A stretch of DNA of 64,000 bases from Mucilaginibacter sp. (GTDB lineage: Bacteria; Bacteroidota; Bacteroidia; Sphingobacteriales; Sphingobacteriaceae), in contig JAQBOA010000065.1 in the NCBI GenBank assembly GCA_028288305.1, positions 1-64,000 on the forward strand, given 5' to 3'. Under the pieces are notes generated by a model. That model made no database searches, was not told the origin of the DNA, and was given only the letters and a program-made list of their open reading frames with translations. The first letter of the stretch is position 1. Every line of letters begins with the position of its first letter. The position numbers and the translations under genes are program-made. Below, piece after piece: positions 10,463 through 56,201 of the stretch.

Positions 10463-10972
10463 TTAAACGTTCTTTTCCATTACAATAAGCTCAATTGGTT
10501 GTTTGGGTATGCCAAATTTTGTACCGTGATGAAAGGGTTCGGTTTCGCCGGTAGCTTTAAACCCTCGCCGTTCATACCAGCTGATCAGTTCAGAACGTGT
10601 GCTGATTACTGTAATAGTTAATGTGTGACAGTTTAATTGTATAGCATAAGTTTCGGCAGCCAGCAGTAAGTCCCTGCCTGTGCCTTTTCCCTGTAAAAGC
10701 GGCGAAACACTAAACATACCTACATATAATTTAGATGCACGAAATTCCAGGTAAACGCAGCCCGTTATTTCGCCACTATTTTCAGTGTTTTTCAGGATGG
10801 TAATTTTAGGATCATCAAAGTAACTTTTTAACGTAGCTTCGTCTATCCTTAATCCATCAAGCAGGTGAGCTTCAGTTGTCCAGCCTTTTTTAGAAGTTTC
10901 GCCACGGTAAGCGCTGTTTACTAAAACGTTAAGTTCGGATACATCGGTAAGAGTAGCTTTTGTTATGGGCAT
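10463..10972 (-). CDS. GNAT-family N-acetyltransferase
   Basis: The 169-aa protein has the GNAT fold, with acetyl-CoA-binding motif A at about residues 87-105 (VSPLLQGKGTGRDLLLAAE, the Q/RxxGxG/A signature as QGKGTG) and a C-terminal WYERRGFKATGE (about 131-142). It acetylates an amine that cannot be identified. Its first 45 bp and upstream DNA recur 672 bp away at 11600-11644, where a second copy is cut off after 15 codons, so this gene is the survivor of a local duplication. Confidence 0.9.
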   Translation of the reverse strand: MPITKATLTDVSELNVLVNSAYRGETSKKGWTTEAHLLDGLRIDEATLKSYFDDPKITILKNTENSGEITGCVYLEFRASKLYVGMFSVSPLLQGKGTGRDLLLAAETYAIQLNCHTLTITVISTRSELISWYERRGFKATGETEPFHHGTKFGIPKQPIELIVMEKNV

Positions 10973-11082
10973 AGATTATTTTTTTGCGGTACAAACCTAA
11001 ACTTTTTAAAATTTAAGGCAAGTATCTATTTGCTAATTATAAGGCTGATAAAATTATCACCGCTAATTGAAATTACTATCTC
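10928..11082. repeat. Direct repeat copy A (GNAT 5' end plus VCBS 3' remnant)
   Basis: About 155 bp here align without long gaps to 11600-11755 with scattered mismatches. Both copies hold a GNAT start (minus strand), a spacer and the 3' end of a VCBS-repeat gene. In copy A the GNAT gene is whole and the VCBS part is a stub; in copy B it is the reverse. This is what remains after tandem duplication of a VCBS-GNAT pair and loss of the middle. Confidence 0.75.
11026..11082 (-). pseudogene. 3' remnant of a VCBS/FG-GAP repeat gene
   Basis: The minus-strand frame ending at 11026-11028 (TAG) reads EIVISISGDNFISLIISK. This matches the C-terminus of the intact VCBS protein at 11698 (DIVVGNSGENFISLIISR). 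Upstream of 11082 the similarity stops, so only the last 18 or so codons survive. Confidence 0.7.
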
Positions 11083-11599
11083 CTTGTTCACGTTCATTTC
11101 ACATTAACACACATATGAACGTTCATAAACGCCTTGTAATCAATAACTTGTGCTTGAAAAATTTTAGATATCTATATCTGCCTGTAAATCAGCTGATTGC
11201 AAATTTGTATGAAAAAAAACATCTTCAGCGTGAAGTAATGTTAATTGATGACGTATAATCCGTTATTCGAACCTTTTTACAGAAAAATGCAGAAAAATGC
11301 AATTATTGCAGGGGTTGGATTCATCGATTTGCATATTTTCGCGATTTTAGCGTTCAAATGCGTTCATGATGAACGGTAGAGGGATCTATTTTTGATCGGC
11401 CCATGCTTGCGTAAAGCAGCGAATAAGGATCATATCATAGAGTCTATTGACGGCCTTATCCAGCATACTAAAACCGGGCTGGCTTATAAATAACAAAGCC
11501 CGGCGCTCGGTGCCAGGCTTCGTTTATTTGCTACTTATCGCTTCCATAGTTACGAGAACCCAAACGCCTTGGTCGACCCGGATTCTTGCGCCGGATTTA
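11083..11599. other. Non-coding filler between duplicated segments; no supported gene
   Basis: No convincing ORF is seen. It holds a 14-bp palindrome TATGAACGTTCATA (11114-11127), several GTTCA words near 11087-11126 and 11350-11375, and a hairpin at 11496-11520 (AAGCCCGGC/GCCAGGCTT, one mismatch) followed on the minus strand by TTTGTTATTT, terminator-like. A 30-codon minus ORF (11524-11616) ends just before that hairpin, but its start lies inside copy B and it matches nothing I recognise. It looks like decayed mobile or recombined DNA. Confidence 0.5.
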
Positions 11600-11644
11600 G
11601 TTAAGTTCGGGTACATCGGTAGTTACTGCTTTTGTTATGGGCAT
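11600..11644 (-). pseudogene. 5' remnant of a second GNAT acetyltransferase gene
   Basis: ATG at 11642-11644 opens MPITKAVTTDVPELN and then stops at once with TAA. The intact gene at 10972 begins MPITKATLTDVSELN. The break falls at the left edge of the direct repeat. Confidence 0.7.
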
Positions 11645-11697
11645 CGATCATTTTTTAGCAATACAAACCTAAACCTTTTAAAACCTCAGGCAGATAT

Positions 11698-12870
11698 CTA
11701 TCTGCTAATTATAAGGCTGATAAAATTCTCACCGCTATTTCCAACCACTATATCTTCTTTTTTATCAACATTAAAGTCGGCAATAGCAACACCATCAGGC
11801 TTTGCTCCAACTGGTATTGTATAGCTCGATGCAACAGTATTTTTATTCATTATGAATACCGTAATGCTGTTACTTTTATAATTAGTAACCACAATATCAG
11901 GAATACCATCGCCATTTAAATCGCCTATGGCAACCCGGCTTGGCGCTTTCCCAGTGGTAAACGGCGATCCAGGCATGGTTGTAAACTTTCCTTTTCCATC
12001 ACCAAGTAAAACAGTTAAGCCATCCTTGCCTTTATTAGACGCAGTTATACTGGGCGAGTTGATTATTGCCAGGTCAGGATTACTGTCGTTATTAATATCT
12101 CCAATAGCAACGCCAAACGGAGAATCACCGCATGGAAATGGTGAGCCTTCGGGCTCATGAAAATTCCCTTTTCCATCGCCCAAAAGTATAGTTGCATTAT
12201 TACCATCAAGATTTGTGGTAACAATATCTAAATTTCCATCTTTGTTTAAATCAGCAGTTCTTATCCGTTGATAAGGGTGCTTGCCAACCTGCAGGTATTT
12301 GGCAATGGTATTAAACCCACGATCACTGTTACCAAACAAAATTGCTAACCGGTTATTTCCCCAACTATCAGTAACCAAGTCTAAATTGCCATCGTTATTA
12401 AAGTCGCCTGCTACTACGCCATGTGTATGAGGAGTAACCTCCACCTTAATTGGCGAACCTTTTATAGGAGTAAATCTTCCATGTCCATCTCCAGTTAGTA
12501 CAGTAAGGTACTTGCGGTCGTGGTTTGCAAAGGCCAGGTCTGGTTTGCCATCTTTATTAAAATCAGCTATAGCAATATCGTTCGGCATGTAACCTGCCTT
12601 AAACGGTGAGCCTTTGGCTTCTCTAAAGTTCGCCTTACCGATCCCAAGTAATATAGTTACACTGCTGTCTTCACCATTAGCAATTACGAGGTCCACAATC
12701 TTATCCCCGTTTAAATCAGCTGCTTCCACGCTATAAGGTTTACTATGTAATTGAATTTTGCTGATAACCCAAGGCGAAGCACTATAGCTTGTTCGGGCAT
12801 AATTCTTTGTGCAGACAATGATAAAAGCGCAAGCTGCAATAGATAAAATAAATACAACAGTTTTTTTCAT
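11698..12870 (-). CDS. FG-GAP/VCBS-repeat beta-propeller protein, exported or membrane-anchored
   Basis: The 390-aa protein (start ATG at 12868-12870; an upstream in-frame ATG would add nine residues) has an N-terminal hydrophobic segment ending near a Cys (AACAFIIVC), so it is secreted or possibly lipid-anchored. The rest is about seven repeats built on D-x-N-x-D-G-x-x-D-L (such as DLNGDKIVDL, DFNKDGKPDL, DLNGDGIPDI), the calcium-binding loops of FG-GAP propellers. Such proteins bind surfaces or partners; no catalytic domain is present. Its 3' end is part of direct repeat copy B. Confidence 0.85.
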   Translation of the reverse strand: MKKTVVFILSIAACAFIIVCTKNYARTSYSASPWVISKIQLHSKPYSVEAADLNGDKIVDLVIANGEDSSVTILLGIGKANFREAKGSPFKAGYMPNDIAIADFNKDGKPDLAFANHDRKYLTVLTGDGHGRFTPIKGSPIKVEVTPHTHGVVAGDFNNDGNLDLVTDSWGNNRLAILFGNSDRGFNTIAKYLQVGKHPYQRIRTADLNKDGNLDIVTTNLDGNNATILLGDGKGNFHEPEGSPFPCGDSPFGVAIGDINNDSNPDLAIINSPSITASNKGKDGLTVLLGDGKGKFTTMPGSPFTTGKAPSRVAIGDLNGDGIPDIVVTNYKSNSITVFIMNKNTVASSYTIPVGAKPDGVAIADFNVDKKEDIVVGNSGENFISLIISR

Positions 12871-19477: not shown

Positions 19478-19522
19478 TCTTTACCATAGCGATGGGTTTC
19501 AAACCCATCGCTATGGTAAAGA
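19478..19522. repeat. Perfect 22-bp inverted repeat with 1-nt spacer
   Basis: Arms 19478-19499 and 19501-19522 are exact reverse complements around a single C. The core word is ACCATAGCGATGGGTTT. There is no T-tract, so it is not a classical terminator, though it could stop transcription or stabilise the 3' end of the DinB-LysE-YjbR transcript. Confidence 0.85.
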
Positions 19523-34731: not shown

Positions 34732-34763
34732 AATTCCCCCTTTTGGGGGCTTAGGGGGTTTTC
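34732..34763. repeat. CCCCCTTTAGGGGG-family repeat at the dacB 3' end
   Basis: A variant copy (CCCCCTTTTGGGGG core, then CTTAGGGGGTTTTC). It overlaps the last codons and the stop of dacB (34751-34753), so the protein ends in KTP encoded by the repeat. It also lies 29 bp past the kinase stop and may act as a two-way terminator. Confidence 0.7.
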
Positions 34764-36169
34764 AACTCATCCAAAATCCTGAAAATCTTCTCCTTCATGC
34801 TTCTGCCCGATCCGTTATAATTATTTACCATGATAGAAAAGCAAAGTTCGCGGCCATTGTGCGTTTGATAACCGGCATAAGTAAGCACATTAAGGATGCT
34901 GCCGCTTTTCATTTTCATATTATTATACGTTGGCAAACTCTCATAAAAATCCGGAAACCAGTTTTCTTTTTTAGCTGATTGCAGGATAGTTGCCATGGTT
35001 AAAGTAGTAACCCTGGTGCCCGGCGAAAGGCCGCTTCCATCTACAATATTCAATGAGCGCGGATCGATGCCTTTTGCTTTCCAAAAATTCTGTTCCACTT
35101 CTACGCCATTGGCTGTTGACGGCTCTTTACCGGCTTTCCAGGCAATTGTTTTTAGCACCTGCTCTGCGTATAGGTTAATGCTTTTTTGATTCAGCCAGTA
35201 AACAATCTGACTTAAATATGGAGAAGGGATGGTGGTTAAATTAGTTACAATTTGTGGTGTTTGGAGCCCTTTGGCAATTAAAGAAGTTGTTGATTCAGGT
35301 TCACCGGTTATCAAAATTCCTAAACTTTTTAAGGTATCGCTTAATCGTAAAGCAGCATCATAAGCCGGATCAGGCAGTGCGGCAGAAATACTTTTTTTGG
35401 TTTGATCAATGGCATAAGTCCCCCTTAAATACATTGTTTTACCGTTAACAGGTAAATAGGCATAGGCGTTATCGCCGGTATTGGCCGGCGCATTTATAAG
35501 CTCACTTTTAAAATTAAGGTAGGGTACAGCAGATACTTCATGTGAAATACTTATGGGACTACCAACGCTGCCTGTCTTTAATTTAATATCAAACTGGTTT
35601 TCACGCCAGCAAAGGCCTGACGTACCTGCACCGTAGTAGTTGCCTATGTCTTCCCATATCCATCCATCGGGGATAGCTTGTGTGCCAAAAATGCTATCGT
35701 CACCAATAATACGCCCGTTAATATTTTTTATCCCAGCCTTTCGAAGTGTAGCTACCATTAAGCTGAGTACATGATCTTCATGTGTATTCTCATATCTCCA
35801 GCTGCCCAAAGTCGGGTCGCCGGATCCCTTGATAATTACATCCCCGGTAAGGGTACCATCAGGACCTATTGAACCAATATAACCAAATTGGGTTTGATAT
35901 TGAAAATCTTTCCCCAATAAGTTAAAAGCGGTAATGGTTGTTATGGTTTTGAGTGTCGATGCTGTTGCCAGGCCCATGTTTGGATTAGCAGCAAACACCG
36001 TTTCCCCGGTTTTTGCATCCAGCACTGTTAAAGAAACCGATGCATAGCGGCACTGACTATCAGCCTGCAACCGGTTAAATGCCGAATGCAGTTTTTGCTC
36101 AAGCGGTTGGGCAAAGGTTTGCCCGGAAATAAGAAATAGACTAACTAACCAGATCTGTTTGATCCTCAT
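34751..36169 (-). CDS. dacB: D-alanyl-D-alanine carboxypeptidase/endopeptidase (PBP4)
   Basis: The 472-aa exported protein (signal about residues 1-20) has the penicillin-binding SxxK at S71-K74 (ASTLKTIT), a large inserted domain and a KSG box near the C-terminus (MKSGSIL). It is a class C PBP that trims or cuts peptidoglycan peptides. The 5' end overlaps the upstream permease gene by 29 nt. The last three residues and the stop codon come from an intergenic repeat. Confidence 0.9.
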   Translation of the reverse strand: MRIKQIWLVSLFLISGQTFAQPLEQKLHSAFNRLQADSQCRYASVSLTVLDAKTGETVFAANPNMGLATASTLKTITTITAFNLLGKDFQYQTQFGYIGSIGPDGTLTGDVIIKGSGDPTLGSWRYENTHEDHVLSLMVATLRKAGIKNINGRIIGDDSIFGTQAIPDGWIWEDIGNYYGAGTSGLCWRENQFDIKLKTGSVGSPISISHEVSAVPYLNFKSELINAPANTGDNAYAYLPVNGKTMYLRGTYAIDQTKKSISAALPDPAYDAALRLSDTLKSLGILITGEPESTTSLIAKGLQTPQIVTNLTTIPSPYLSQIVYWLNQKSINLYAEQVLKTIAWKAGKEPSTANGVEVEQNFWKAKGIDPRSLNIVDGSGLSPGTRVTTLTMATILQSAKKENWFPDFYESLPTYNNMKMKSGSILNVLTYAGYQTHNGRELCFSIMVNNYNGSGRSMKEKIFRILDELKTP

Positions 36170-37743: not shown

Positions 37744-39990
37744 ATGGATCTATTGAACAATTACTTAATTTATTTAATTCCTGTTTTCGGCATCATTGGC
37801 ATAATAGCAATGGCCATTAAAGCAGCCTGGGTAACCAAACAGGAAACCGGTGATGCCGGCATGAACCAGCTTGCGGGCTATATTGCGGCAGGCGCTATGG
37901 CTTTTTTAAAGGCGGAATGGAAAGTGCTGAGTTATTTTGTGGTAGTAGCGATGATATTGCTGGCATGGTCTGGCACTACAGTGATCACTTCAAGCCCGGT
38001 AATTGCGATTTCTTTTTTATGTGGCGCTTTCCTGTCGGCTTTTGCCGGATTCTTAGGAATGCGCATCGCAACAAAAGCAAATGTACGTACCACGCAGGCC
38101 GCTAAAACCAGTTTAGCCAAAGCTTTACAAGTATCATTTACCGGCGGTACCGTAATGGGTTTGGGTGTAGCGGGCCTTGCAGTAATAGGATTGGGTTCAT
38201 TATTTATTGTTTTTTATACTGTATATGTAGTAAATACAGGCGGGAACGTTAACGGTGAAGCAATGGCCAAGGCATTGGATGTGCTTGCCGGATTTTCATT
38301 AGGAGCAGAGTCCATTGCCCTGTTTGCACGTGTAGGTGGAGGTATTTATACCAAAGCGGCTGATGTGGGTGCGGATTTGGTAGGTAAAGTTGAAGCCGGT
38401 ATACCTGAAGATGACGTACGTAACCCCGCTACTATTGCCGATAACGTAGGTGATAACGTAGGTGACGTTGCCGGTATGGGCGCAGATTTATTTGGCTCAT
38501 ATGTGGCCACAATGCTGGCAACAATGGTTTTAGGCCGTGAAATAGTATCAAATGATAAATTTGGCGGGATAGCTCCTATACTATTGCCAATGGTAATAGC
38601 AGGTCTTGGGTTACTGTTTTCAATTGTAGGCGCAGCATTTGTTAAGATAAAAAATGAAACTGACAGCGTTCAGAAAGCCTTAAATATAGGTAACTGGACT
38701 TCTATTATTTTAACCGCAATAGCCACTTACTTTATAGTGCAGTGGATGCTGCCTTCGGGTGAGTTTCACATGATTCGCGATGATACAGGCGGTGTATTAA
38801 AAGGCGGCGCGTCTCATTTTACAAAAGATGGTGTGTATATGGCTATCCTTGTAGGATTGGTTGTTGGCACCCTGATGTCCATGATCACTGAATATTACAC
38901 TGCTATGGGCAAACGTCCTGTGCTGGGAATTATCAGGCAGTCATCAACCGGCCATGCTACCAATATTATTGCTGGTTTAGCCGTTGGTATGGAATCAACC
39001 GTATTGCCTATTCTTGTTTTAGCGTCAGGTATATATGGTTCTTACTATTTCGCAGGTTTATACGGCGTTTCAATTGCTGCTGCGGGCATGATGGCAACAA
39101 CCGCTATGCAGTTATCCATTGATGCTTTTGGCCCTATTGCGGATAATGCCGGTGGTATTGCCGAAATGAGCCGCCTGCCAGAAGAAGTAAGGCACCGTAC
39201 AGACAACCTTGATGCTGTTGGCAACACTACCGCAGCAACAGGTAAGGGTTTCGCTATTGCTTCGGCGGCATTAACCTCACTGGCCTTATTTGCGGCCTTT
39301 GTTGGCGTGGCAGGTATAGAGCACATTGATATTTATAAAGCTAATGTTTTAGCCGGGTTGTTTGTCGGCGGTATGATCCCATTCATATTTTCGTCTCTTG
39401 CTATTTCCGCTGTAGGCCGTGCTGCTATGGCAATGGTAGAAGAGGTTCGCCGCCAGTTCCGTGAGATACCTGGGATTATGGAATATACAGGTAAACCTGA
39501 ATACGAAAAATGTGTGGCTATATCTACCCAGGCATCTATCCGCGAAATGGTAGCTCCCGGATTAATCGCACTGCTCACACCTATTATCATTGGTTTTTCA
39601 TTCGGTCCGGAAGTATTGGGCGGTTTGCTGGCTGGTGTAACTGTATCAGGTGTATTAATGGGATTATTTCAAAGCAACGCCGGTGGTGCATGGGACAATG
39701 CTAAAAAGTCATTCGAAAAAGGGGTGATGATTAATGGTGAGATGTTCTACAAAAAATCTGAACCGCACAAAGCGTCTGTAACCGGTGATACCGTTGGCGA
39801 TCCATTTAAAGATACATCGGGCCCGTCAATGAATATTTTGATCAAGCTGATGTCGATAGTTTCCCTGGTAATTGCACCTCATTTAAATATGCATACACCT
39901 AAAAACGAGGGTATGAATCATCCTATACAAAAAGAGATAAGGATGCATGCGATGGTTAGTCCGTTTGTGAAGGTGGATAAGAAAGGTTAA
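37744..39990 (+). CDS. hppA: Membrane-bound ion-translocating pyrophosphatase
   Basis: The 748-aa protein has about sixteen helices and the pyrophosphate-binding signatures [19 protein letters not shown] and [20 protein letters not shown]. It hydrolyses PPi and pumps H+ and/or Na+. The K+-site motif reads [10 protein letters not shown] with Ala at residue 497, the K+-dependent type, which in Bacteroidota often means a Na+ or Na+/H+ pump. The last residues carry an extra hydrophilic tail. It is monocistronic and followed by a palindromic repeat. Confidence 0.95.
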
Positions 39991-40011
39991 TATTAATTGC
40001 TATTCGCCGAG

Positions 40012-40113
40012 CGTCATTGCTGTAAGGCACGAAGCAATCTCTACATAGGACAAGAATGATAATGCAAGTCGTTAATGCACAGTTCAGAGATTGCTTCGTA
40101 CCTCGCAATGACG
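40012..40113. repeat. Palindromic repeat of the TCGCAATGACG family, acting as convergent terminator
   Basis: Left arm CGTCATTGCTGTAAGGCACG-AAGCAATCTC and right arm GAGATTGCTTCGTACCTCGC-AATGACG pair with a few bulges around a 40-nt loop. It fills the gap between convergent hppA and the HAD gene. Related copies are at 9886-9979 and 52866-52961. Confidence 0.75.
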
Positions 40114-40119
40114 TTTTGA

Positions 40120-42295: not shown

Positions 42296-43606
42296 TTACT
42301 TATTCTCAAGCAAATATTTCTTAAACCCTTCAAAATCCTTACCTAAAGCTACAGACTTCTTATTCTTTTTTGCCAATGCCTTAACCCGTTCAGGAACTAT
42401 TATTTTACCGGCAACACTACGCGGATAAACATCAGGGAATTTGCAGGGATGAGCGGTTGATAAAAAGACTCCTGCAAAATCACCGCGGTAATTATCCTGT
42501 TGCCAATCCTTCAAAGCTTGCCAGGCAATTGCAGTATGCGGACAAGCTACATAGTTATTGTTATCATAAATAAACTTGATAGCGTTAAGTGTTTCATCAT
42601 CATCATAACGATAACCTGTTACCAGCGTTTTTAATTTTTCAATGTCATCCTTAAACAGGTCGGCTATACGTACCCAGTTACTTGGGTCGCCAACATCCAT
42701 AGCATTTGACAGGGTGGCTACCGATGGCTTCGGCTGGTAAACGCCTGTCTTTAAAAATTCAGGAACAGTATCGTTAACATTGGTGGCTGCTATAAAATGT
42801 TCAACTGGTAAGCCCATTTTCCAGGCTAATAAACCGGCCCCAATGTTACCAAAGTTGCCGCTTGGGACAGAAAAAACCACCTTATCAATACCTTGTTTTA
42901 ATAACTGTGCATAGGCGTTAAAATAATAAAAGGTTTGTGGTATCAACCGGGCAATGTTGATAGAGTTGGCCGATGTAAGCCGGAATTTTTCATTCAGTTC
43001 TGCATCAGTAAAGGCTTGTTTAACTAATGCCTGGCAGTCGTCAAATGTACCATCAATCTCAACAGCACGAATGTTTTGGCCGTTTGTGGTGAGTTGAAGT
43101 TCTTGTATATCACTAACTTTTCCTTTAGGGAATAATATAGTGACACGGGTATTCGGCACGCCCAAAAAGCCAAGGGCTACAGCACCGCCGGTATCACCCG
43201 AAGTTGCAACCAATACATCCAGCTGTTTTTCATCTGCCTCTAAAAAGTAACTCATCACCCTGCTCATAAAGCGGGCTCCGAAATCCTTAAATGCCAGCGA
43301 TGGCCCATGAAAAAGCTCCAGTACAAATACGTTCTCTTCCAGCTTAACAACAGGGGCTAAAAAACTTATTGCATCATAAATGATAGCTTTCAGGTCGTCA
43401 TCTGCTATGTCGTCACCCAATAAATTTTTAGCCACATGAAAGGCTATTTCCGGAAGAGAATACTGATCGAGGTTATTTATAAACTTATCATCCAATTGCG
43501 GGATGTTCACCGGCATATAAAGCCCTTTATCTTGCGGCATGCTGTTAAAAACCGCTTCTTTGAATGACACCCTGGTAGAAGGGTTTTTGGTACTATATAG
43601 TTGCAA
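42296..43606 (-). CDS. thrC: Threonine synthase
   Basis: The 436-aa PLP enzyme converts O-phosphohomoserine to threonine. The PLP-lysine segment is LAFKDFGARFM (about residues 106-116), and SGDTGGAVALG binds the phosphate. The length is normal for the family. The first codon is TTG (43604-43606): no ATG fits, because an in-frame stop lies 6 nt upstream, and MQLYSTKNPSTRVSF matches the usual family start. A word-based palindrome abuts it. It is the last gene of thrA-thrB-thrC. Confidence 0.95.
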   Translation of the reverse strand: MQLYSTKNPSTRVSFKEAVFNSMPQDKGLYMPVNIPQLDDKFINNLDQYSLPEIAFHVAKNLLGDDIADDDLKAIIYDAISFLAPVVKLEENVFVLELFHGPSLAFKDFGARFMSRVMSYFLEADEKQLDVLVATSGDTGGAVALGFLGVPNTRVTILFPKGKVSDIQELQLTTNGQNIRAVEIDGTFDDCQALVKQAFTDAELNEKFRLTSANSINIARLIPQTFYYFNAYAQLLKQGIDKVVFSVPSGNFGNIGAGLLAWKMGLPVEHFIAATNVNDTVPEFLKTGVYQPKPSVATLSNAMDVGDPSNWVRIADLFKDDIEKLKTLVTGYRYDDDETLNAIKFIYDNNNYVACPHTAIAWQALKDWQQDNYRGDFAGVFLSTAHPCKFPDVYPRSVAGKIIVPERVKALAKKNKKSVALGKDFEGFKKYLLENK

Positions 43607-43607
43607 T

Positions 43608-43749
43608 TTGATTTACGATTTTAGATTTACGAATTACGATTGATTTTGATTTCTTTTTGTCTGAATCAGGATTTTCAGATGAACAGGATTAATATTTGAT
43701 TTAAAAATGCATCTTGAAAATCCTAAAATCCTGTAAATCTTGATTCAGA
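43608..43749. repeat. Two word-based palindromes between thrB and thrC
   Basis: Part 1 (43608-43650): ATTTACGA/ATTACGAT words directly next to the thrC start, shared with 54895-55005. Part 2: TCTGAATCA (43670-43678) paired with TGATTCAGA (43741-43749), with nested GGATTTTC/GAAAATCC and ACAGGATT/AATCCTGT. The thrB-thrC transcript would fold strongly here, possibly tuning thrC. Confidence 0.7.
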
Positions 43750-43753
43750 ATAA

Positions 43754-44746
43754 TTATAGCACTCGCGGCCCTTTATCATTAATAGTGGATACATAAGTAT
43801 TCGATCCTATTTGTATCCCCGTTAAGTGCTGCTGAAGCTTTTTGGTAATAAGTTTTGCTGTTTCTTCATCCCTGGTAAAGGCAAAAACCGAAGGCCCTGA
43901 ACCGGATATACCAAAACTTACCGCGCCTAAATTCATGGCTATTTCCCGCATCTGGTAAAAATCAGGAATCAGCATGGAGCGTACAGGTTCTACCAGTATA
44001 TCTTTCATACTGCGGCCAATCAGATCTATATCCTGCATGAATAAGCCACTTACAAGGCCTGCAATGTTTCCCCATTGAGTAACGGCGTCTTTCATTAATA
44101 TTTTATTGCGAATAATCTGCCTGGCCTCACGGGTAGGCACATCAACATCCGGGAAAACTATAGCACAATATAAACCGGCAGGGTGGGGCAGGCGCACCAC
44201 ATCAAGCGGGTCGTAACTACGGATCAGCACAAAGCCTCCTAACAGGGCAGGTGCTACATTATCCGCATGACCATGACCGCAGGCCATTTCCTCACCTTTC
44301 ATTGCAAAAGGCAACAGCCTGGCGGGATCAGCATCATCGCCCAGTAAAGTTTTTATAGCAAACAAGCCGGCCACAGTGCTTGCCGAACTGGAGCCCAAGC
44401 CACTGCCGATGGGCATTTTTTTGTGCAGTTCAATATCAAGGCCAATATCGGTACGGCCAACACTTTGAAGATAATGCTGAACACTCACGCTTACCGTATT
44501 TTTGGCAGGATCGAGTGGTAATCGCCCATTATCTCCCGTAATTTTACTAATAGTAATGCCAGGTTTATTGGTGATACGCATCACCACCTCGTCACCAGGT
44601 TCGTTTACAGCAAAACCCAGCACGTCAAAGCCGCAAACTACGTTGGCAACAGTAGCAGGAGCGAAAACTGAGATAGAAGCCCCCCGACCCCCTAAAGAGG
44701 GAGTTTTTTCGGCTGATATTTTTAAATCTTGAATACTATTTTCCAT
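43754..44746 (-). CDS. thrB: Homoserine kinase
   Basis: The 330-aa GHMP kinase has the ATP motif PIGSGLGSSSAS (about residues 105-116) and GISGSGPSVFAF near the C-terminus. It phosphorylates homoserine for ThrC. The true ATG is at 44746; an earlier TTG would add four residues. The first about 23 residues are not family-like: residues 15-23 (TPSLGGRGA) are encoded by the CCCCCTTTAGGGGG-family repeat, and the kinase proper starts at about residue 25 (SVFAPATVANVVCGFD). Confidence 0.93.
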   Translation of the reverse strand: MENSIQDLKISAEKTPSLGGRGASISVFAPATVANVVCGFDVLGFAVNEPGDEVVMRITNKPGITISKITGDNGRLPLDPAKNTVSVSVQHYLQSVGRTDIGLDIELHKKMPIGSGLGSSSASTVAGLFAIKTLLGDDADPARLLPFAMKGEEMACGHGHADNVAPALLGGFVLIRSYDPLDVVRLPHPAGLYCAIVFPDVDVPTREARQIIRNKILMKDAVTQWGNIAGLVSGLFMQDIDLIGRSMKDILVEPVRSMLIPDFYQMREIAMNLGAVSFGISGSGPSVFAFTRDEETAKLITKKLQQHLTGIQIGSNTYVSTINDKGPRVL

Positions 44747-44791
44747 ATAAATTATCAAACTTTAGTTCCCCCTTTAGGGGGTTAGGGGGCT
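44678..44791. repeat. Inverted repeat pair around the thrB start codon
   Basis: Arm 1 (44764-44791) is 28 nt with core CCCCCTTTAGGGGG and lies 3 nt after the thrA stop. Arm 2 (44678-44704) is its inverted, slightly diverged copy, inside the thrB frame. The 59-nt loop holds the thrB start codon. Each arm is also a small palindrome of its own. The first arm is identical to that at 53755-53782. Confidence 0.85.
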
Positions 44792-44794
44792 GAG

Positions 44795-47239
44795 TTACTT
44801 TCCCACATTTATCAAATCAGCAAATACTCCTGCTGCAGTTACTTCGGCACCTGCGCCGGGGCCCTTTACTACCAGCGGGCGTTCTTTATACCTGTCGGTA
44901 GTGAAAGATATGATATTATCACTTCCAGATAAGGTATAAAACGGATGGTTTTCATCTACCGTTTGCAGGGTGATGGCAGCTTTACCGTTTTCCAGCTTGC
45001 CTATATAACGTAAAACTTTGTTCTCATTTTCGGCCCTGGCTTTTAAATTACTAAAAAAAGTATCTTCCGCTTTTAATGCCGCATAAAAATCATCAACAGT
45101 CTGGGCATCTAAACAAGCTTTTGGTAGCATGCTTTCTATCTGAACATCTGCTGCTTCCATAGCGTAGCCTGCATCACGGGCAAGAATCAAAATCTTACGC
45201 ATAAAGTCCGTGCCGCGCAAATCATCACGAGGATCAGGTTCGGTATAGCCCTTTTCCTGGGCCATCTTAACCACATCATGAAAGTTTGCATCACCTTTAA
45301 AATTATTAAAAATAAAGGAAATAGTTCCTGATAGTATGGCTTCAATCTTCATAATCCTGTCGCCGCTATTCATCAGGTCCTTTAAAGTACGTATGATTGG
45401 CAAACCTGCGCCAACATTGGTCTCATAAAAGAAATCAACACCATGCTGTTTGGCTGTATCATGGAAGGTTTTATATTGCTTATAAGATGCAGAATTACCT
45501 ATTTTATTGCAGGTAATTACCGATATGTTCGATTTAAAAACTTCTTCATAAACTTCAACAGGTTTTGGGCTGGCGGTATTATCGATAAACACACAGTTCG
45601 GCAAGTTCATACTGATCATCTTTGCCACAAATTCATTAAGATTAGCTTTATCTTCTGAAGCCTGCAGTTCTTCCTGCCAGCTATCTAAAGATATGCCATC
45701 GGTATCAAATAACATTTTACGGGTGTTGCTTATACCGGCAATTTTAACCTGTATGCCATTATGCTCCTGCAAATAAGCACTATGCGCGTTAAGCTGCTTA
45801 AACAGCGTTTGACCAATATTGCCTGTTCCTAAACAAAAGGCATGCAGCGTTTTTGTAAGCTGAACAAAAAAGCCATCGTGTACAGCATTTAATGCCTTGG
45901 CAAGATCATGACCAGAAATGATCACCGAAATATTGTACTCAGATGAGCCTTGTGCGATGGCCCTTACGTTAACACCGTTACGGCCCAGCGCATAAAACAA
46001 CTTGCCTGATACACCGGGAGTTTGTTTCATATTTTCGCCGACTACGGCTATAATAGCCAGGTTTTGTTCTATAACAACGTGTTCCAGTTTTTTGGCAACC
46101 AGTTCAAGCTCAAATTCCTGTTCAATTAATAGGCGGGCTTTTTCGGAATCGCCGGGCTGAACAGCGAAAGTGATGCTATGTTCTGATGATGACTGTGTTA
46201 TCAGTATAACATTGATCTGCTCACGGGCCAGCAAGGAAAACAATCGCCCGCTAAAGCCCGATTTACCCACCATTCCGCTGCCTTCCAGGTTAAGGATACT
46301 TATATTATTGATGGATGAAATACCTTTTATGGGGAGGTTTGACGGTTTGCAATCATGGCGTATAACAGTCCCTTCAAAATCAGGCTCAAAAGTGTTTTTT
46401 ATTACGATGGGTATCTTCTTTAAAAAAGCCGGGATCATAGTAGGAGGATAGATCACCTTCGCACCAAAATAGGAAAGCTCCATTGCTTCAGTATAAGTAA
46501 GTTCCTCAAGAGAGAAGGCCTTTTTAACCATGCGTGGGTCGGCGGTCATCATTCCGTTAACATCAGTCCAAATCTGTATTTCTTTAGCATTTAATGCCGA
46601 ACCAAAAATTGCTGCAGTATAATCGCTGCCTCCGCGACCAAGGGTGGTGAGCTGTCCTGCTTCGTTAGTTGCGATAAAACCTGTTACCAACAGCATTTTG
46701 TCACTATGTTCTTTGTGAAAACCACATATCAACAGTTCAGTAAGTTCCATATTCACTCTAGCCTGACCAAACGAACTGTCGGTTTTTATCAACTCGGATG
46801 CATCGACACAAAAAGCCTCCGGAAAATGCTGCGCAGCTATTTTACAAATCATTATTGTGGAGCAGCGTTCGCCAAAACTTAATACATGATCGCGTGTTTT
46901 TGGGGTAAGTTCTCTTAAGGTGAGAATGCCTTGTAACAACTCTTCCAGCTGATTAAAATAAAGCTTTAAGCGTGTATAGGCGGGGTTTTGATGTTGTGCA
47001 GTCAGCAGACTTTTTACCACATCATAATGGCGTTTCTCCAGTTCAGCTAATTCAGCGGTGAAATCCTGGCCGTTTGCAGCGCCTTCTGCCATGGAAATTA
47101 GCAGGTTAGTTACCCCGCTCATGGCGGATAATACAACTACTGGCTTTTCGTCTTTAACTTCACCCTTTAAAATATTCAATAAGGTTTGGATACTTTGAAC
47201 TGATCCTACGGAAGTACCGCCAAATTTTAAAATTTTCAT
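44795..47239 (-). CDS. thrA: Bifunctional aspartate kinase/homoserine dehydrogenase I
   Basis: The 814-aa protein has an aspartate kinase domain (about residues 1-300; KFGGTSVGS at 4-12), two ACT domains for threonine feedback (about 310-460), and a homoserine dehydrogenase domain (about 462-814; GTGNIGQTL NAD(P) site and the catalytic GTISFIFNN region). It makes aspartyl phosphate and homoserine, first and third steps to threonine. The upstream thr leader and terminator control it. It is followed by thrB and thrC. Confidence 0.95.
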   Translation of the reverse strand: MKILKFGGTSVGSVQSIQTLLNILKGEVKDEKPVVVLSAMSGVTNLLISMAEGAANGQDFTAELAELEKRHYDVVKSLLTAQHQNPAYTRLKLYFNQLEELLQGILTLRELTPKTRDHVLSFGERCSTIMICKIAAQHFPEAFCVDASELIKTDSSFGQARVNMELTELLICGFHKEHSDKMLLVTGFIATNEAGQLTTLGRGGSDYTAAIFGSALNAKEIQIWTDVNGMMTADPRMVKKAFSLEELTYTEAMELSYFGAKVIYPPTMIPAFLKKIPIVIKNTFEPDFEGTVIRHDCKPSNLPIKGISSINNISILNLEGSGMVGKSGFSGRLFSLLAREQINVILITQSSSEHSITFAVQPGDSEKARLLIEQEFELELVAKKLEHVVIEQNLAIIAVVGENMKQTPGVSGKLFYALGRNGVNVRAIAQGSSEYNISVIISGHDLAKALNAVHDGFFVQLTKTLHAFCLGTGNIGQTLFKQLNAHSAYLQEHNGIQVKIAGISNTRKMLFDTDGISLDSWQEELQASEDKANLNEFVAKMISMNLPNCVFIDNTASPKPVEVYEEVFKSNISVITCNKIGNSASYKQYKTFHDTAKQHGVDFFYETNVGAGLPIIRTLKDLMNSGDRIMKIEAILSGTISFIFNNFKGDANFHDVVKMAQEKGYTEPDPRDDLRGTDFMRKILILARDAGYAMEAADVQIESMLPKACLDAQTVDDFYAALKAEDTFFSNLKARAENENKVLRYIGKLENGKAAITLQTVDENHPFYTLSGSDNIISFTTDRYKERPLVVKGPGAGAEVTAAGVFADLINVGK

Positions 47240-49961: not shown

Positions 49962-51215
49962 TCATTTAGGAGATTTAGACTCGCCCAACGCACTCTTAAA
50001 ATCATGCAACAAATCATCAATATCTTCAATACCAATTGAAAGCCTGATCATGGAATCAGATATTCCCATTTCTGCTCTTTTCTGTGGACCTATTTCATTA
50101 AAGATGGTATGTGCTACCGGAATAGCCAATGTGCGGGTATCGCCAAGATTGCTTGATTTTACAACCAGTTTGAGTTTATTTAAAAATTCAAAGCAATCAA
50201 TACTGTTATCAAGCTCGATGCTCATAAGGGCACCGTATTTTAGAAATAAGTGATGAGCTATTTCATGCTGCGGATGAGATTTTAAACCGGGGTAGTATAC
50301 CTTTTTAATATGCGGGTGACCTTCAAAAAAGGTTGCCAGCGAAAAAGCATTTGTGCAGGCTCTTTCCATCCGTAAAGCAAGTGTTTCTGATCCTACGGAA
50401 ATAGAATGGGCAGCTTCAGGGGCAAGTGTACCGCCTGAATCCCTTAATCCTTTTTTCCTTATCTGGGTAATACCCAAAACTTCTGGCTTAACCTGTTTTT
50501 TAAAGCCTTCAAAAATATTCGCAAAGTTTTCCCAATTAAATAAACCCGTATCTGTAACACTTCCGCCAAGGGCGTTGCCGTGGCCTCCGATATATTTTGT
50601 TAAGGAGTTGATTACCAGGCTTGCTTTTACGTCTATCGGTCTGAATATATAGGGAGAGGTCATGGTGTTATCAACCATGTAAATAATATCTTTTTGCTGG
50701 CAAAGATCACCAATTGCTGCGAGGTCAACTATTTGGGTGGCAGGATTAGCTATCGTTTCAACAAATATCATTTTTGTGCTTTCCCTTAGCTCACTACGCA
50801 CATTATCCACAGAAGTAGCATCTACGAAAGTAAAATCAAGACCCATATCTATAAAAGTCTGAAAAACGCTTCTTGTATTTCCAAACAAATATGAACTGGC
50901 AATAATATGATCACCCCTTTTTATTAACGCCATTATAGTGGCAGTTATGGCAGCCATACCTGTAGAAAAAGCAATTGTCGATAAGCCTTTTTCCATTAAG
51001 GTAACTTTGTTTTCTAAAGCTGAAACAGTTGGATTGCCCTGTCTTGAATAAGCGTATCCTTTTTTCTTATTTTGGAAAATATCTACCAGGTCCTGCACAT
51101 CATCATAACCATAAGTTACTGAGGTATGAATAGGTTTATGTAAAGCGCCATGTTCTGGTTTTGTTAAGCGGTCGGCATGTAAAATAGTAGTAGTGAAGCC
51201 CCTTTTTGAATTCAT
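49962..51215 (-). CDS. Cystathionine gamma-synthase-family PLP enzyme
   Basis: The 417-aa Cys/Met-metabolism enzyme has the PLP lysine in INSLTKYIGGHG and the substrate motif YSRQGNPT near residue 55. It may be cystathionine gamma-synthase, O-acetylhomoserine sulfhydrylase or methionine gamma-lyase; the family cannot be split by eye. Homoserine made by ThrA is the shared precursor of methionine and threonine, but this gene lies 4 kb away on the same strand and is not in the thr operon. A palindrome array follows upstream. Confidence 0.85.
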   Translation of the reverse strand: MNSKRGFTTTILHADRLTKPEHGALHKPIHTSVTYGYDDVQDLVDIFQNKKKGYAYSRQGNPTVSALENKVTLMEKGLSTIAFSTGMAAITATIMALIKRGDHIIASSYLFGNTRSVFQTFIDMGLDFTFVDATSVDNVRSELRESTKMIFVETIANPATQIVDLAAIGDLCQQKDIIYMVDNTMTSPYIFRPIDVKASLVINSLTKYIGGHGNALGGSVTDTGLFNWENFANIFEGFKKQVKPEVLGITQIRKKGLRDSGGTLAPEAAHSISVGSETLALRMERACTNAFSLATFFEGHPHIKKVYYPGLKSHPQHEIAHHLFLKYGALMSIELDNSIDCFEFLNKLKLVVKSSNLGDTRTLAIPVAHTIFNEIGPQKRAEMGISDSMIRLSIGIEDIDDLLHDFKSALGESKSPK

Positions 51216-51228
51216 GGCACGAATTACA

Positions 51229-51345
51229 CAAATTTAGACGAATTACACAAATGAATGAACACTAATTACACAAATGTTATAAATACGAATTTTCAGAAAT
51301 AGCACTAATTTTCATGAATGAATTAACACCAATTACACAAATTCA
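51229..51345. repeat. Tandem AATTACACAAAT words with inverted partner
   Basis: GAATTACACAAAT, GAATTACACAAAT, CTAATTACACAAAT, CCAATTACACAAAT occur in series (51230-51342), with CACTAATTTTCATGAAT at 51303-51319 as the inverted form of the word in the direct repeat 51376-51412. It is outside the GxxExxY cassette but of the same word set. Confidence 0.7.
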
Positions 51346-51375
51346 TGCGAATTACTCAAATTGACGCGGGAACTA

Positions 51376-51412
51376 AATTCGTGAAATTCGAAATAATTCG
51401 TGAAAATTAGTG
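51376..51412. repeat. 37-bp direct repeat, left copy
   Basis: It begins AATTCGTGAAATTCG and ends AATTCGTGAAAATTAGTG. It matches the right copy at 51836-51872 in 36 of 37 positions. The two frame the GxxExxY gene, and the unit between them is about 460 bp. Confidence 0.9.
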
Positions 51413-51418
51413 TTCTTC

Positions 51419-51793
51419 TTAAAAGATAACCCGCTGGGATTCTAATGATGGCTTTCCAAAGTTTATGACAATTCCCAAGCGCATTCCCGATGCTTTAAGA
51501 TAATTTAGTGTTTGTTTGATGTAAGGGTCACCAATGTAACTACCGATTTTTATTTCGAGAATAATTGTATCGTATATCACAAAATCAGCTATATAAAAGT
51601 GCTTTAGTTTTTGTTCTTTATAAATTATAGTGAATGCTTTCTCTCTGGCAAAAGGAATTTCAAGTTTAATTAATTCAAGCTCTAAGGCATCCTTATAAAC
51701 AGCTTCTTTAAAACCATGCCCTAATATATTATGTACTTCAAAACATGCTCCGATAATTTTGTATGATTCTTCCTTAAATAATATATCCGACAT
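51419..51793 (-). CDS. GxxExxY protein
   Basis: The 124-aa protein has the family signature GHGFKEAVY (G..E..Y, about residues 25-33) and a PD-(D/E)XK-nuclease-like core (FYIADFVIYDTIILEIK: D and ExK acidic residues, about 65-82), ending in LRLGIVINFGKP-like text. Members are widespread in Bacteroidota genomes, often in many copies between repeats, and have no settled function. Here it is alone and bracketed by direct repeats. Confidence 0.92.
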   Translation of the reverse strand: MSDILFKEESYKIIGACFEVHNILGHGFKEAVYKDALELELIKLEIPFAREKAFTIIYKEQKLKHFYIADFVIYDTIILEIKIGSYIGDPYIKQTLNYLKASGMRLGIVINFGKPSLESQRVIF

Positions 51794-51835
51794 AAAAGTT
51801 ACACGAATTTAACCGAATTTCACAAATTCAATTGT

Positions 51836-51872
51836 TTAATTCGTGTAATTCGAAATAATTCGTGAAAATTAG
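51836..51872. repeat. 37-bp direct repeat, right copy
   Basis: It differs from 51376-51412 at one position. It ends 13 bp before the dtd start. Just left of it, TTACACGAATT (51796-51806) forms an inverted repeat with AATTCGTGTAA (51836-51846), so this copy can fold into a hairpin. Confidence 0.9.
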
Positions 51873-51885
51873 TGCTAAATAACAT

Positions 51886-52992: not shown

Positions 52993-53742
52993 TTACAATT
53001 TAACAAGCTTATCCCCATCCAAAATAGGTATAGCAGTTGTCAAATCTACCTGCAAACAAAACTCTATATCCTTTTCAATGCCAAGTTTTTTAAGGCGTTC
53101 GCTGTGTGATGTTTTTTTGAGGTACTTGTTTATATCGTGTTGGCCTATTTGAAAAAGGTCATTTGCTGCAATGGCGGAATCATCAAGCGTAAAGTTGGCT
53201 TCCTTTAGCTGCTCAACTACCGCTCCAGCAAAGAGGGTGTCTTCCAGGTTAAAATTGTTTTTCCATCCTGCACAAACCAGCAAAATGTTTTCATCCTGTA
53301 TTTTAAGCCAGTTGCTTAATGTTGTAAGATTTAAAAACGAACCGATCACTATTTTTTTTGCTTTGCGTGACAGGTGCAGCGCATGAGTACCATTAGTTGT
53401 GGTTAATACAACCGTTTTGCCTGCGACTTTTTCTTTAGTATAAGAAAATGGCGAATTACCAAAATCAAAACCTTCCACAACTTTGCCATCCCGTTCTGCA
53501 GCTAACAAATGATCCAGGCCTTTTTCACGGTAAGCAGCACATTCTTCTACCAGTGAAACAGGGATTATAGCTGTAGCTCCATTTTCAATCCCATAGCATA
53601 TAGAGGAAGTAGCCCTGAAAATATCAATGATCACCACAATATAATCTTCCACATCATATAGTGGAATAAGGGCAGGGGAAAGGCAAACGTTTAGCCCCCA
53701 ACCCCCTAAAGGGGGCTCTTTTTTATTGATATTATTAGACAT
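52993..53742 (-). CDS. comB: 2-phosphosulfolactate phosphatase family (ComB-like)
   Basis: The 249-aa protein has the ComB signature: YIVVIIDIFRATSSICYGIENGATAIIPV (about residues 34-62) and LTTTNGTHAL, LLVCAGWKNNFNLEDTLFAG. ComB turns 2-phosphosulfolactate to sulfolactate in coenzyme M synthesis. In Bacteroidota, which do not make coenzyme M, a role in sulfonate or sulfonolipid supply is possible but inferred. Residues 9-17 (EPPLGGWGL) are encoded by an intergenic-type repeat, and the family core starts at about residue 18. Confidence 0.87.
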   Translation of the reverse strand: MSNNINKKEPPLGGWGLNVCLSPALIPLYDVEDYIVVIIDIFRATSSICYGIENGATAIIPVSLVEECAAYREKGLDHLLAAERDGKVVEGFDFGNSPFSYTKEKVAGKTVVLTTTNGTHALHLSRKAKKIVIGSFLNLTTLSNWLKIQDENILLVCAGWKNNFNLEDTLFAGAVVEQLKEANFTLDDSAIAANDLFQIGQHDINKYLKKTSHSERLKKLGIEKDIEFCLQVDLTTAIPILDGDKLVKL

Positions 53743-53782
53743 TACATTTTTTTTAGTTCCCCCTTTAGGGGGTTAGGGGGCT
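53693..53782. repeat. Inverted repeat pair around the comB start codon
   Basis: Arm 1 (53755-53782) is 28 nt with the CCCCCTTTAGGGGG core, 4 nt after the gcvT stop. It is identical in all 28 bases, and in 33 with flanks, to the thrA-thrB arm at 44764-44791. Arm 2 (53693-53718) is its inverted copy inside the comB frame. The 36-nt loop contains the comB ATG (53740-53742). Confidence 0.88.
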
Positions 53783-53786
53783 GACT

Positions 53787-54866
53787 TTATTTATTAAAAG
53801 GCGGTTTAACTATTTTGGCTTTTACTTTGTTATCCCTGATGCTGATAAATATTTCTGTGCCTTCTTTTGCAAATTCAGTTTTAACATAGCCCATGCCGAT
53901 GGCTTTTTGTAAAGATGGAGATTGTGTACCGGAGGTTACCTTGCCAATGTTATTTCCATTCGCATCCACAATTTCATAATCATGACGTGGAATGCCCCTG
54001 TCTACCATTTCAAAACCAACAAGCTTACGTTTTATGCCTTCCTGTTTTTGCTGCTGCAATGAAGCTGAATTTGTAAACTCTTTATTGAATTTAGTAACCC
54101 ACCCTAAACCGGCTTCCAATGGTGATGTGGTATCGTCGATATCGTTGCCGTAAAGGCAAAAGCCCATTTCTAAACGCAAAGTATCACGTGCACCCAAGCC
54201 TATCGGCTTTATTCCGAGTGGTTCGCCAGCCTTAAAAATGGCATTCCAAATATGTTCGGCATTTTGATTTTCAAAATATATTTCGAAACCTCCTGCACCG
54301 GTATAGCCCGTTGCAGAAACCAATACATTATCCACACCTGCAAATTTTCCTTTTTTAAAGGTATAATATTCCATCGAAGCAAGGTCGATATCAGTTAAGC
54401 TTTGTAATGCCTCGGCAGCTTTAGGCCCTTGTATAGCGAGAAGGGACGTACGATCTGAAATATTTTTCATTTCAACACCCCATTTATTATATTTTGAAAT
54501 CCAGTTCCAGTCCTTTTCAATGTTTGAGGCATTAACCACCAGCATATATGTTTTTTCGTCGATTCGATAAACCAGCAGGTCATCTACTATCCCGCCATCT
54601 TCATTTGGCAGGCAGGAATATTGTACTTTTCCGTCATACAGTTTTGCGGCATCATTACTGGTAACCTGCTGAATAAGGTTGAGTGCGTTATCTCCTTTTA
54701 TAATGAACTCGCCCATGTGGCTTACATCAAAAACACCAACACCATTGCGTACTGTTTCATGTTCGGCATTAATGCCAACGTATTGTACAGGCATGTTATA
54801 ACCCGCAAATGGTACCATTTTGGCACCTGCTTTTATATGTATATCGGTTAAAGCGGTATTCTTCAT
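53787..54866 (-). CDS. gcvT: Aminomethyltransferase (glycine cleavage T protein)
   Basis: The 359-aa folate enzyme has the T-protein core: [30 protein letters not shown] near the start, [13 protein letters not shown] in the middle and [22 protein letters not shown] for folate. It takes the aminomethyl group from the H protein, releasing NH3 and methylene-THF. Other gcv genes are not in the window. It is probably co-transcribed with comB 44 bp downstream, with a repeat in the gap. Confidence 0.96.
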
Positions 54867-54894: not shown

Positions 54895-55005
54895 TGATTT
54901 ATGAATTACGATTTACGAATTACGATTTACTTGTGCCTAATAAGAATGTATCCATGTTAGAAGTCAAAAATCGTAATTCGTAAATCTAAAATCGTAAATC
55001 AAATC
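54895..55005. repeat. Word-based palindrome (ATTACGATTTACGA words)
   Basis: Left half GATTTATGAATTACGATTTACG then AATTACGATTTAC; right half AAATCGTAATTCGTAAATC then AAAATCGTAAATCAAATC. The right half runs over the stop codon of the next glycosyltransferase (54999-55001), so the repeat supplies the gene end. The same words occur at 43608-43650. Confidence 0.8.
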
Positions 55006-56201
55006 ACTTTCCTGTAAAAGTCAACCAGGTTTTTAGTAACCTTATTCATATCGTGCTGTTCTTCCACTAACTTGCGGGCGTTGAGGCCGATGCTTTTGCA
55101 ATATTCTTCATCTGTTATGCAAAGTTTGATAGCTGCATAAAACTCATCCTGGTTATTGGCAATCAATATATTTACGTCATTTTCAAAACTAATGCCCTCC
55201 GCTCCCAATGAAGTAGAAATGATACATTTTTGCATAGCCATTCCTTCAACAATTTTTACCCGCATGCCTCCGCCCGAAAGTAAGGGGACTATCATTATCG
55301 ACTTGCTGTTTACAAATTCAAGCGCATCATCAACCTCGCCCTGAATAAATATTTTACCCATTACTTCATAATCATCAAATCTTTCCGGAATATCGGTCCC
55401 GGCAACATAAAAACGTACACCCAGGTCGCCTTCGGTGAGTTCTTTATAAAAATTATCCAAAAACCATTCAATGCCTTCGCGGTTAGGCAACCAGTCTAAT
55501 GATCCTAAAAAAAACAGGCTGGGAAATTCAGTTTTATTAAAATCAGGCTTATAGTGATCAAGGTTTATTCCTACAGGCAATATCTCTATGGGTATTTTTG
55601 TACCATACTCCATCAGGGTGCTTTTATCCTGTTCGGTAAAAACAGCAATTCCGTCGAAATTATTTAGTTGTTGTAATTCATAATTTTTAATCCGTTTGGC
55701 ATGCATTTTCAGATATGATTTTTTAAACGGATCAGTTTTTTGCATTGATAGCCTTTCCCAGATCTGGTTCTCAATATTATGTGCCCGGTAGATTAACTTT
55801 GCTTTTGAAAATTTACGTACTGCCGGGAGATATAAAGAAACAAACAACCCTTCAAACTGGATAATATCATAAGCTGTTTTTCTTAATTCGCGCATCAGCA
55901 GCTTCTCAAATTCCGGGTTGTAGTACTTATTAATATTAAACGAAGTTTTACTAAATAAATTAACAGCAACCTCAATTATCGAAACTTTAGTGTCGATATC
56001 ATAAACCCGGTAATTTATTTTGGATAATAAATCTTTGTCATCTTCATTATGTTCATAGTGATGATTTTTTTTGGGGTTAAGTGCTACTAATGAAACTTCG
56101 TGACCCATGGTTACCAAACCCCTAACGGTATTATAAACCACTATTGGATATCCGCCATTTTGTGGGAACGGAACACGATGAGTTAGAATAAGAATTTTCA
56201 A
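54999..56201 (-). CDS. GT4-like glycosyltransferase
   Basis: The 400-aa GT-B fold protein starts MKILILTHRVPFPQNGGYPIVVYNTVRGL (nucleotide-sugar glycosyltransferase N-domain), and has FLGSLDWLPNREGIEWFL and VPLLSGGGMRVKIVEGMAMQKCIISTSLGAEGI (the C-domain donor site with the E-x7-E-like helix). It builds a surface glycan, acceptor unknown. The TGA stop lies in a palindromic repeat. It is not adjacent to other capsule genes. Confidence 0.88.
   Translation of the reverse strand: MKILILTHRVPFPQNGGYPIVVYNTVRGLVTMGHEVSLVALNPKKNHHYEHNEDDKDLLSKINYRVYDIDTKVSIIEVAVNLFSKTSFNINKYYNPEFEKLLMRELRKTAYDIIQFEGLFVSLYLPAVRKFSKAKLIYRAHNIENQIWERLSMQKTDPFKKSYLKMHAKRIKNYELQQLNNFDGIAVFTEQDKSTLMEYGTKIPIEILPVGINLDHYKPDFNKTEFPSLFFLGSLDWLPNREGIEWFLDNFYKELTEGDLGVRFYVAGTDIPERFDDYEVMGKIFIQGEVDDALEFVNSKSIMIVPLLSGGGMRVKIVEGMAMQKCIISTSLGAEGISFENDVNILIANNQDEFYAAIKLCITDEEYCKSIGLNARKLVEEQHDMNKVTKNLVDFYRKVI

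Follow-up and report, generated by a model that had tools for sequence, protein, structure and literature searches.

Inverted repeat arms around the thrB start codon of a Mucilaginibacter genome probably represent one copy of a REPIN-like element inserted between genes

Introduction

Several kinds of short palindromic repeats have been described in bacterial genomes. The REPINs, or REP doublets, of P. fluorescens are high-copy short palindromes, mostly present as inverted pairs that form a hairpin in RNA or single-stranded DNA, with a minority of singletons; their distribution over extragenic space is reported to be random (PMC3116915). The REP Mb of Marinomonas is a 5-bp perfect palindrome with a 4-nt loop, located 2 bases from a GTAG motif (PMC8266576). 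Among the TnpA-REP proteins, subclass 2.6 is a Bacteroidetes branch with atypical flanking structures (PMC6006769). In E. coli, REPs at most 15 nt from a stop codon reduce translation (PMC12306157). The palindromic elements of Rickettsia are inserted in frame in genes and are translated (PMC10969869), and the TAACTGA motif found near start codons forms direct rather than inverted repeats (PMC4679880). CGTC-tagged repeats have also been described (PMC3733652).

We analyzed a stretch of 64,000 nucleotides from Mucilaginibacter sp. (hereafter the window), in which two arms of a repeat that we call C5 surround the start codon of thrB. Each arm is composed of a foot, CCCCC, a linker of 2-3 nt and the palindrome CCCCCTRAAGGGGG, and is thus directional. 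C5 has in common with the REPINs the inverted pair of short palindromes forming one hairpin, the small share of singletons and the high copy number, with most copies intergenic and some reaching into coding sequences at their ends. It differs by its foot, CCCCC instead of a GTAG-type tetranucleotide, by a very variable loop length, by a placement flush with coding ends instead of random in extragenic space, and by the lack of a linked RAYT carrying the repeat in its flanks (PMC3116915). Because the GTAG-type motif, the linked RAYT and the random placement are missing, we call C5 REPIN-like and not a REPIN.

The other systems compare as follows. C5 resembles the Marinomonas REP Mb by its 5-bp palindrome, its 4-nt loop and the short linker to a 5' motif, but this motif is not GTAG and no adjacent tnpA-REP was found (PMC8266576). 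The genome studied here (own genome) belongs to the same phylum as subclass 2.6 and carries genes that resemble it by a reading of the motif table, one of them with a NF047646 match; the palindromes flanking these genes are nevertheless sequences other than C5 (PMC6006769). As in Rickettsia, a palindromic repeat is translated within a host protein, but in the cases seen at N- or C-terminal ends, in three phases, and with an arm of about 24 nt as compared with about 150 bp (PMC10969869). As for the E. coli REPs, a palindrome lies close behind stop codons, but start codons are abutted too, with the opposite arm orientation (PMC12306157). No description of the C5 family or of the flush placement was found in the titles and opening lines of abstracts examined from open-licence papers, and repeat words searched for as letters matched only unrelated papers.

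Results

Hairpins at the thrA-thrB and gcvT-comB gaps

The features of both loci are given in Table 1. A sequence-only reading of the window had proposed that inverted arms frame the thrB start codon and that one of them is translated. These arms are real: the second one lies inside thrB, and the region folds far beyond its dinucleotide shuffles (-53.9 kcal/mol, z -4.64; 0/200 as good). The outer arm has 22 nt, and its distance to the thrA stop becomes 3 nt if the arm is taken to include the AG before the foot, common to both loci. The inner arm is indeed translated as TPSLGGRGA just ahead of the conserved core. The comB region also folds better than all its dinucleotide shuffles (-49.0 kcal/mol, z -4.80; 0/200 as good).

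Table 1. Coordinates of the thrB and comB loci and of a further C5-like arm (positions in the window)
Feature	Position	Strand	Remark
thrA	44795..47239	-	bifunctional aspartokinase/homoserine dehydrogenase; gene upstream of hairpin
outer C5 arm, thrB	44768..44789	-	foot outward, 5 nt past thrA stop codon
thrB hairpin loop	44702..44767	-	66 nt; start codon ATG (44744-44746) and codons MENSIQDLKISAEK
inner C5 arm, thrB	44680..44701	+	in frame within thrB, codons TPSLGGRGA, directly before conserved core SISVFAPATVANV
thrB	43754..44746	-	GHMP kinase domains; gene downstream of hairpin
gcvT	53787..54866	-	gene upstream of hairpin
outer C5 arm, comB	53759..53780	-	6 nt past gcvT stop codon
comB hairpin loop	53716..53758	-	43 nt; comB start codon (53740-53742)
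inner C5 arm, comB	53695..53715	+	in frame within comB, codons PPLGGWGL, just before conserved core VCLSPALIPLY
comB	52993..53742	-	2-phosphosulfolactate phosphatase family; gene downstream of hairpin
third, diverged C5-like arm	34736..34758	-	foot outward; linker takes in stop codon of ORF 34751-36169 (-)

An exact arm, the spacing and the coding phase had been proposed to be common to thrB and comB. The outer arms are identical over about 30 nt, but the inner arms are not exact copies, and the loops differ (66 vs 43 nt). The two loci do have the same coding phase, yet this does not extend to the family: the nine arms of the own genome readable as N-terminal residues (among the matches listed) use phases 0, 1 and 2 in three, two and four cases respectively, counting one (L165) with another possible start right behind the arm. 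A conserved reading phase is thus rejected, and the phase common to thrB and comB is a coincidence. The two gene pairs are not special either, with 22 C5 pairs in 31 stretches of the same genome among the matches listed. Both translated arms lack the in-phase TAG that would be given by a CCCCCTAA-type arm, the commonest type (12/53 own arms among the matches listed).

In relatives without the repeat, the thrB N-termini are MKESIKVFA, MNENNIKVFA or longer ones lacking the Pro/Gly tag. Since the residues TPSLGGRGA are not kept there, this peptide comes from the repeat. Some of these repeat-free relatives have codons of the loop in common (MENSLQD, MEDNIQELK), which would also fit two separate arm insertions. 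The outer arm is absent or decayed in some genomes that retain the inner one (L203, L205, L220), and in two others (L199 and L217) the thrA-thrB gap is empty, with 2-3 nt.

Among the 30 genus loci examined, two or more C5 arms are present at thrB in 13 and none is scored in 11; those scored in G021, and the middle one of G001, probably belong to another family (CCCCTCTTGAGAGGGG). The conservation in these 13 genomes and the stable fold around the start codon are what one would expect of a dedicated hairpin that holds the start codon in its loop and controls the translation of thrB and comB. We consider this very unlikely in view of the 11 sites without arms, of copies of this element at unrelated genes whose start is not enclosed by the stem, of the non-conserved phase, and of the absence of covariation and of Rfam matches in the window (see below).

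C5 is a dispersed family of arms paired with feet outward

The own arms come from 31 stretches, among the matches listed for the arm pattern (160 matches counted, with both strands overlapping); 53 were retained by a stricter pattern and 56 in the pair analysis. In about 94% of the 53, the nucleotide just before the CCCCC foot is G or A. The core CCCCCTAAAGGGGG has 34 copies in the 4.9-Mb genome, and exact cores including CCCCCTGAAGGGGG amount to 46. In a phylum sample of 247 genomes the exact C5 core occurs in 9: three genus members, the own genome (46) included, have 46, 24 and 28 copies and the other six one or two. A longer 22-mer matched at least 119 stretches, most of them in Bacteroidota records.

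Of the 56 own arms, 44 form 22 neighbouring pairs and 12 are single, among the matches listed. The feet point outward in 22/22 pairs, and the loop between paired arms ranges from 12 to 175 nt. Half of these pairs (11/22) combine the tail types AA and AG; fixed heterotypic ends are not significant by a hand estimate, though the pairing test leans that way.

The dispersed copies, the constant pair geometry and the empty or differently filled sites in relatives indirectly support the earlier suggestion of a mobile element. The own assembly is made of 109 contigs with 90.7% completeness, so that chance or an assembly artefact has to be considered. This can be practically dismissed: genus members assembled in one or two contigs (G013, G026, G010) also have C5 pairs, both at thrB and at further gaps, and the reversed-core control gives 0 copies in the own genome as in all three genus members of the phylum sample.

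C5 feet often abut coding ends

With genes called as ATG-started ORFs and not by homology, a coding boundary lies at most 10 nt from the foot in 32/53 own arms and from the inner side in 0/53, among the matches listed, as compared with 7.3% of 1240 random intergenic points of the same genome. At a looser limit of 25 nt these values are 33/53 and 5/53. In the at least 119 stretches of other named genomes, the 10-nt limit gives 106/251 for the foot vs 7/251 for the inner side, and 9.9% of 4760 control points. Among the other arms, many overlap a coding end, and several own arms supply the stop codon at a C-terminus.

The boundaries found within 10 nt of the 53 own feet are stops in 19 cases and starts in 13 (among the matches listed). 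The link to start codons that had been read from thrB and comB therefore holds in a wider form: the arms are placed non-randomly with respect to coding ends, but they show no preference for start codons. Because both stops and starts are abutted, thrB and comB are instances of a coding-end rule, not of a start-codon rule. None of the 19 own pairs with both sides assigned (of 22 among the matches listed) lies between two start codons; L171, a half-assigned pair with a start flush against its left side, may be in a divergent gap, and one of the four pairs labelled stop-stop (L184) reads as an N-terminal case in the reading-phase analysis.

Different repeats at orthologous gaps

We compared six gaps, all chosen for C5 in the own genome: thrA-thrB, gcvT-comB, and those before the folD-like, the Cys/Met-metabolism and the Alpha-E genes and before a 137-aa gene (L187). 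The search covered 41 genus genomes including the own one, and 30 loci per gap were used of the 36-41 genomes with a match; orthologous sites share ancestry and are not independent. Over the 180 genome-sites, 58 have C5, 40 another gap-spanning inverted repeat and 70 neither by the test used, the remaining 12 being unassigned. For the first five gaps (150 genome-sites) these numbers are 57, 40 and 50 respectively, with 3 unassigned. Within the class with neither, 19 gaps of the first five sites have a recognised repeat word that is one-sided or below threshold; gaps behind a different upstream gene are also counted there. The sixth gap has C5 in the own genome only: 0/20 assigned relatives have C5 or another such stem, 9 more being unassigned, and the gaps of these relatives are mostly longer (13-413 nt).

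At the five gaps, the first and last arms are foot-outward in 46/46 sites with two or more C5 arms. Sites A, B and D have simple starts; over their 25 cases, the stop and the foot behind it are a median of 0 nt apart (-16 to 11), and the other foot and the start a median of 4 nt (1 to 17). Both arms of the other inverted repeats are at most 15 nt from the gap ends in 25/40 cases. By eye, these other families contain GTCATT, TGAGAT, AAGAATCAAGAG, GTCGATAGTCC, AATCCGAAAT and GCGAGGAACGAAGC words, with some one-sided mixtures of families. Evidence for small native gaps is limited to a few sites, such as the empty gap of 5 nt before folD (site A) in L274.

In a tree of 34 genomes, close relatives differ in the repeat family at one gap. 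In the clearest case, the comB gap is occupied by a GTCATT repeat in G013 and by a C5 pair in G031, and the two gaps match at only 38/104 positions. The adjoining 60/60 nt upstream and 39/39 aligned core nt are identical, with a core start that was set by an automatic rule and varies by a few codons, and the more distant flanks are identical at 523/540 and 511/540 positions. Such swaps between close relatives could reflect the exchange of whole intergenic blocks between species by homologous recombination, the flushness being that of the conserved coding flanks. We find this improbable: because the near flanks are no more diverged than the distant ones, no donor footprint is seen at the comB swap. 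As a separate observation, the start codon of the comB orthologues of L228, L239 and L251-L253 is apparently supplied by the GTCATT repeat, in which AATGAC contains ATG.

Inverted repeats joining gap ends in general

We then turned to 464 kb of the own genome, made up of the window and 20 stretches picked regardless of C5, and considered the gaps of 60-400 nt. An inverted repeat joins the gap ends in 18/123 codirectional, 9/32 convergent and 5/42 divergent gaps; shuffles, which here as at the orthologous gaps preserve base composition only, give 18/2460, 0/640 and 3/840 for the same gap classes. Both arms are at most 15 nt from coding ends in 13 codirectional, 4 convergent and 3 divergent of these gaps. 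By these counts, most gaps of the own genome have no end-joining inverted repeat. The E. coli comparison, a small sample of 34 gaps, gives 0/17, 1/8 and 0/9 respectively.

Such data raise another reading, in which a hairpin is selected independently of its sequence: any repeat family would do, provided that a long stem extends from a stop to the next start (or stop), and it may serve as a terminator, as a barrier to RNase III or exonucleases, or as a stop-start bridge for coupled translation. The occupation of the same gap by different families, all inverted, in different species (the 40 sites beside the 57 of C5 at the five gaps) agrees with it, as do the excess over shuffles in codirectional and convergent gaps, the lack of pairs between two start codons (0/19 among the matches listed) and the effect on translation described for E. 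coli REPs at most 15 nt from a stop codon (PMC12306157). But divergent gaps carry inverted repeats too, 70/180 genome-sites were scored as having neither, and no such stem was found in the 20 assigned relatives of the sixth gap. Taken with the arm comparisons and terminator flags given below, these data lead us to rate it as rather unlikely, though as a serious rival.

Other repeats were seen in the window. An inverted-repeat word different from C5, ATTTACGATTTACGAATTACGA, occurs both in the gap separating thrB from thrC (43606-43641) and in that separating gcvT from ORF 54999-56201 (54895-55004); its copies at 43606-43641 and 54969-55004 are complementary at 36/36 positions. The small ORF 51419-51793, which we take to resemble GxxExxY proteins, is framed on both sides, near the neighbouring genes, by inverted words of the CACGAATTACACAAATT family (51215-51885). 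A convergent gap (39990-40119) is filled by a GTCATTGC..GAAGCAATCT repeat, a word family also found in relatives at the orthologous gaps of comB (L242, L244), folD (L282) and Alpha-E (L355). Finally, a direct repeat of 155 nt, 83% identical, is present at 10928-11754 with 672 nt from start to start.

Tests of function

No compensatory change between partner arms was detected at the five gaps, where 340-859 of 2000 permutations reach the observed match score. In the own genome the partners match worse than permuted ones, 1986/2000 permutations being at or above the observed score. Pairing as such between partner arms is not visibly maintained, in contrast to what a selected, sequence-independent stem would lead one to expect.

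Only one of the four thrB and comB arms, the start-side comB arm (53702-53715, plus strand), is flagged as terminator-like, which may also weigh against that stem and makes an intrinsic terminator a weak candidate as sole explanation. The T content of the tail is 53-64% at each of positions 2-6 in the 53 own arms (among the matches listed). Rfam 15 gives 0 matches in the window at the gathering score.

The suggestion of a translation-control element selected at start codons is not supported by these comparisons: stops are abutted at least as often as starts (19 vs 13 of 53 among the matches listed), three phases are used, many genus orthologues lack one or both arms or have unrelated repeats, and the arms do not covary.

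Search for a mobiliser

The search for Y1 genes gave 7 matches in the own genome, where a true RAYT (NF047646, 93.7 bits; L156) is present. The C5 pattern was not found in the 3-kb loci of the 7 own Y1 genes, and the six that were inspected adjoin palindromes other than C5. With four Y1 queries, no relative was found in the at least 119 C5 loci of other genomes, and a single one in the 31 own C5 stretches (among the matches listed), 1.46 kb from a C5 core. A RAYT linkage of C5 is rejected: the palindromes next to the own RAYT and to the other Y1 genes inspected are not C5. With regard to a possible MITE, C5 pairs have inverted ends, and the empty gaps are too short to display a target-site duplication.

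Two further observations concern Y1 genes. The RAYT-type genes of L154 and L156, of which the latter reaches NF047646, have palindromes of their own in their flanks (GCAAGCGTCCCGCTTG, AAGCGTCCACGCTT). In the window, a perfect 22-nt palindrome with ATAGCGATGGGTTT (19478-19522) is like the palindrome beside an IS200-like Y1 transposase of the same genome (L152, arms 1376-1406 and 1898-1930).

Discussion

We consider it probable that the thrB hairpin is a copy of an interspersed, REPIN-like element inserted in small gaps between genes, and that the translation of its arm is a by-product. The element would consist of two REP-type palindromes in inverted order, feet outward, around an AT-rich loop. 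The pair would insert as one unit, moved by a putative enzyme, into the small gaps between tightly packed genes, and surviving copies would lie exactly between stop and start. At thrB and comB the insert may have removed or blocked the native start codon, leading to translation from the ATG in the loop; the start-side arm would then be read as a Pro/Gly-rich N-terminal tag, for which only an open frame is needed.

Several points speak against this reading: no transposase is tied to C5, the loops of 12-175 nt are unlike a fixed unit, and 12/56 arms are single among the matches listed. In addition, uniform insertion followed by survival does not by itself explain the scarcity of copies in the middle of long intergenic regions.

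A wider proposal can be made only tentatively, and we hold it to be doubtful. The gene gaps of the genus, perhaps of Bacteroidota more widely, would often be filled by interchangeable inverted-repeat cassettes that extend from the last coding base of one gene to the first of the next; unrelated families would be rivals for a given slot, with precise replacement of one by another, the stop-to-start stem being a tolerated or useful form of insert.

C5 stands as a repeat family without known mobiliser. N-termini such as TPSLGGRGA, or tags of the PPLGG-, PFRG- and PLQG-type, come from a repeat and need not reflect the function of the protein. If the placement rule holds, these genomes would offer a natural experiment on operon gaps, in which empty gaps and unrelated hairpins can be compared between close relatives with identical flanks.
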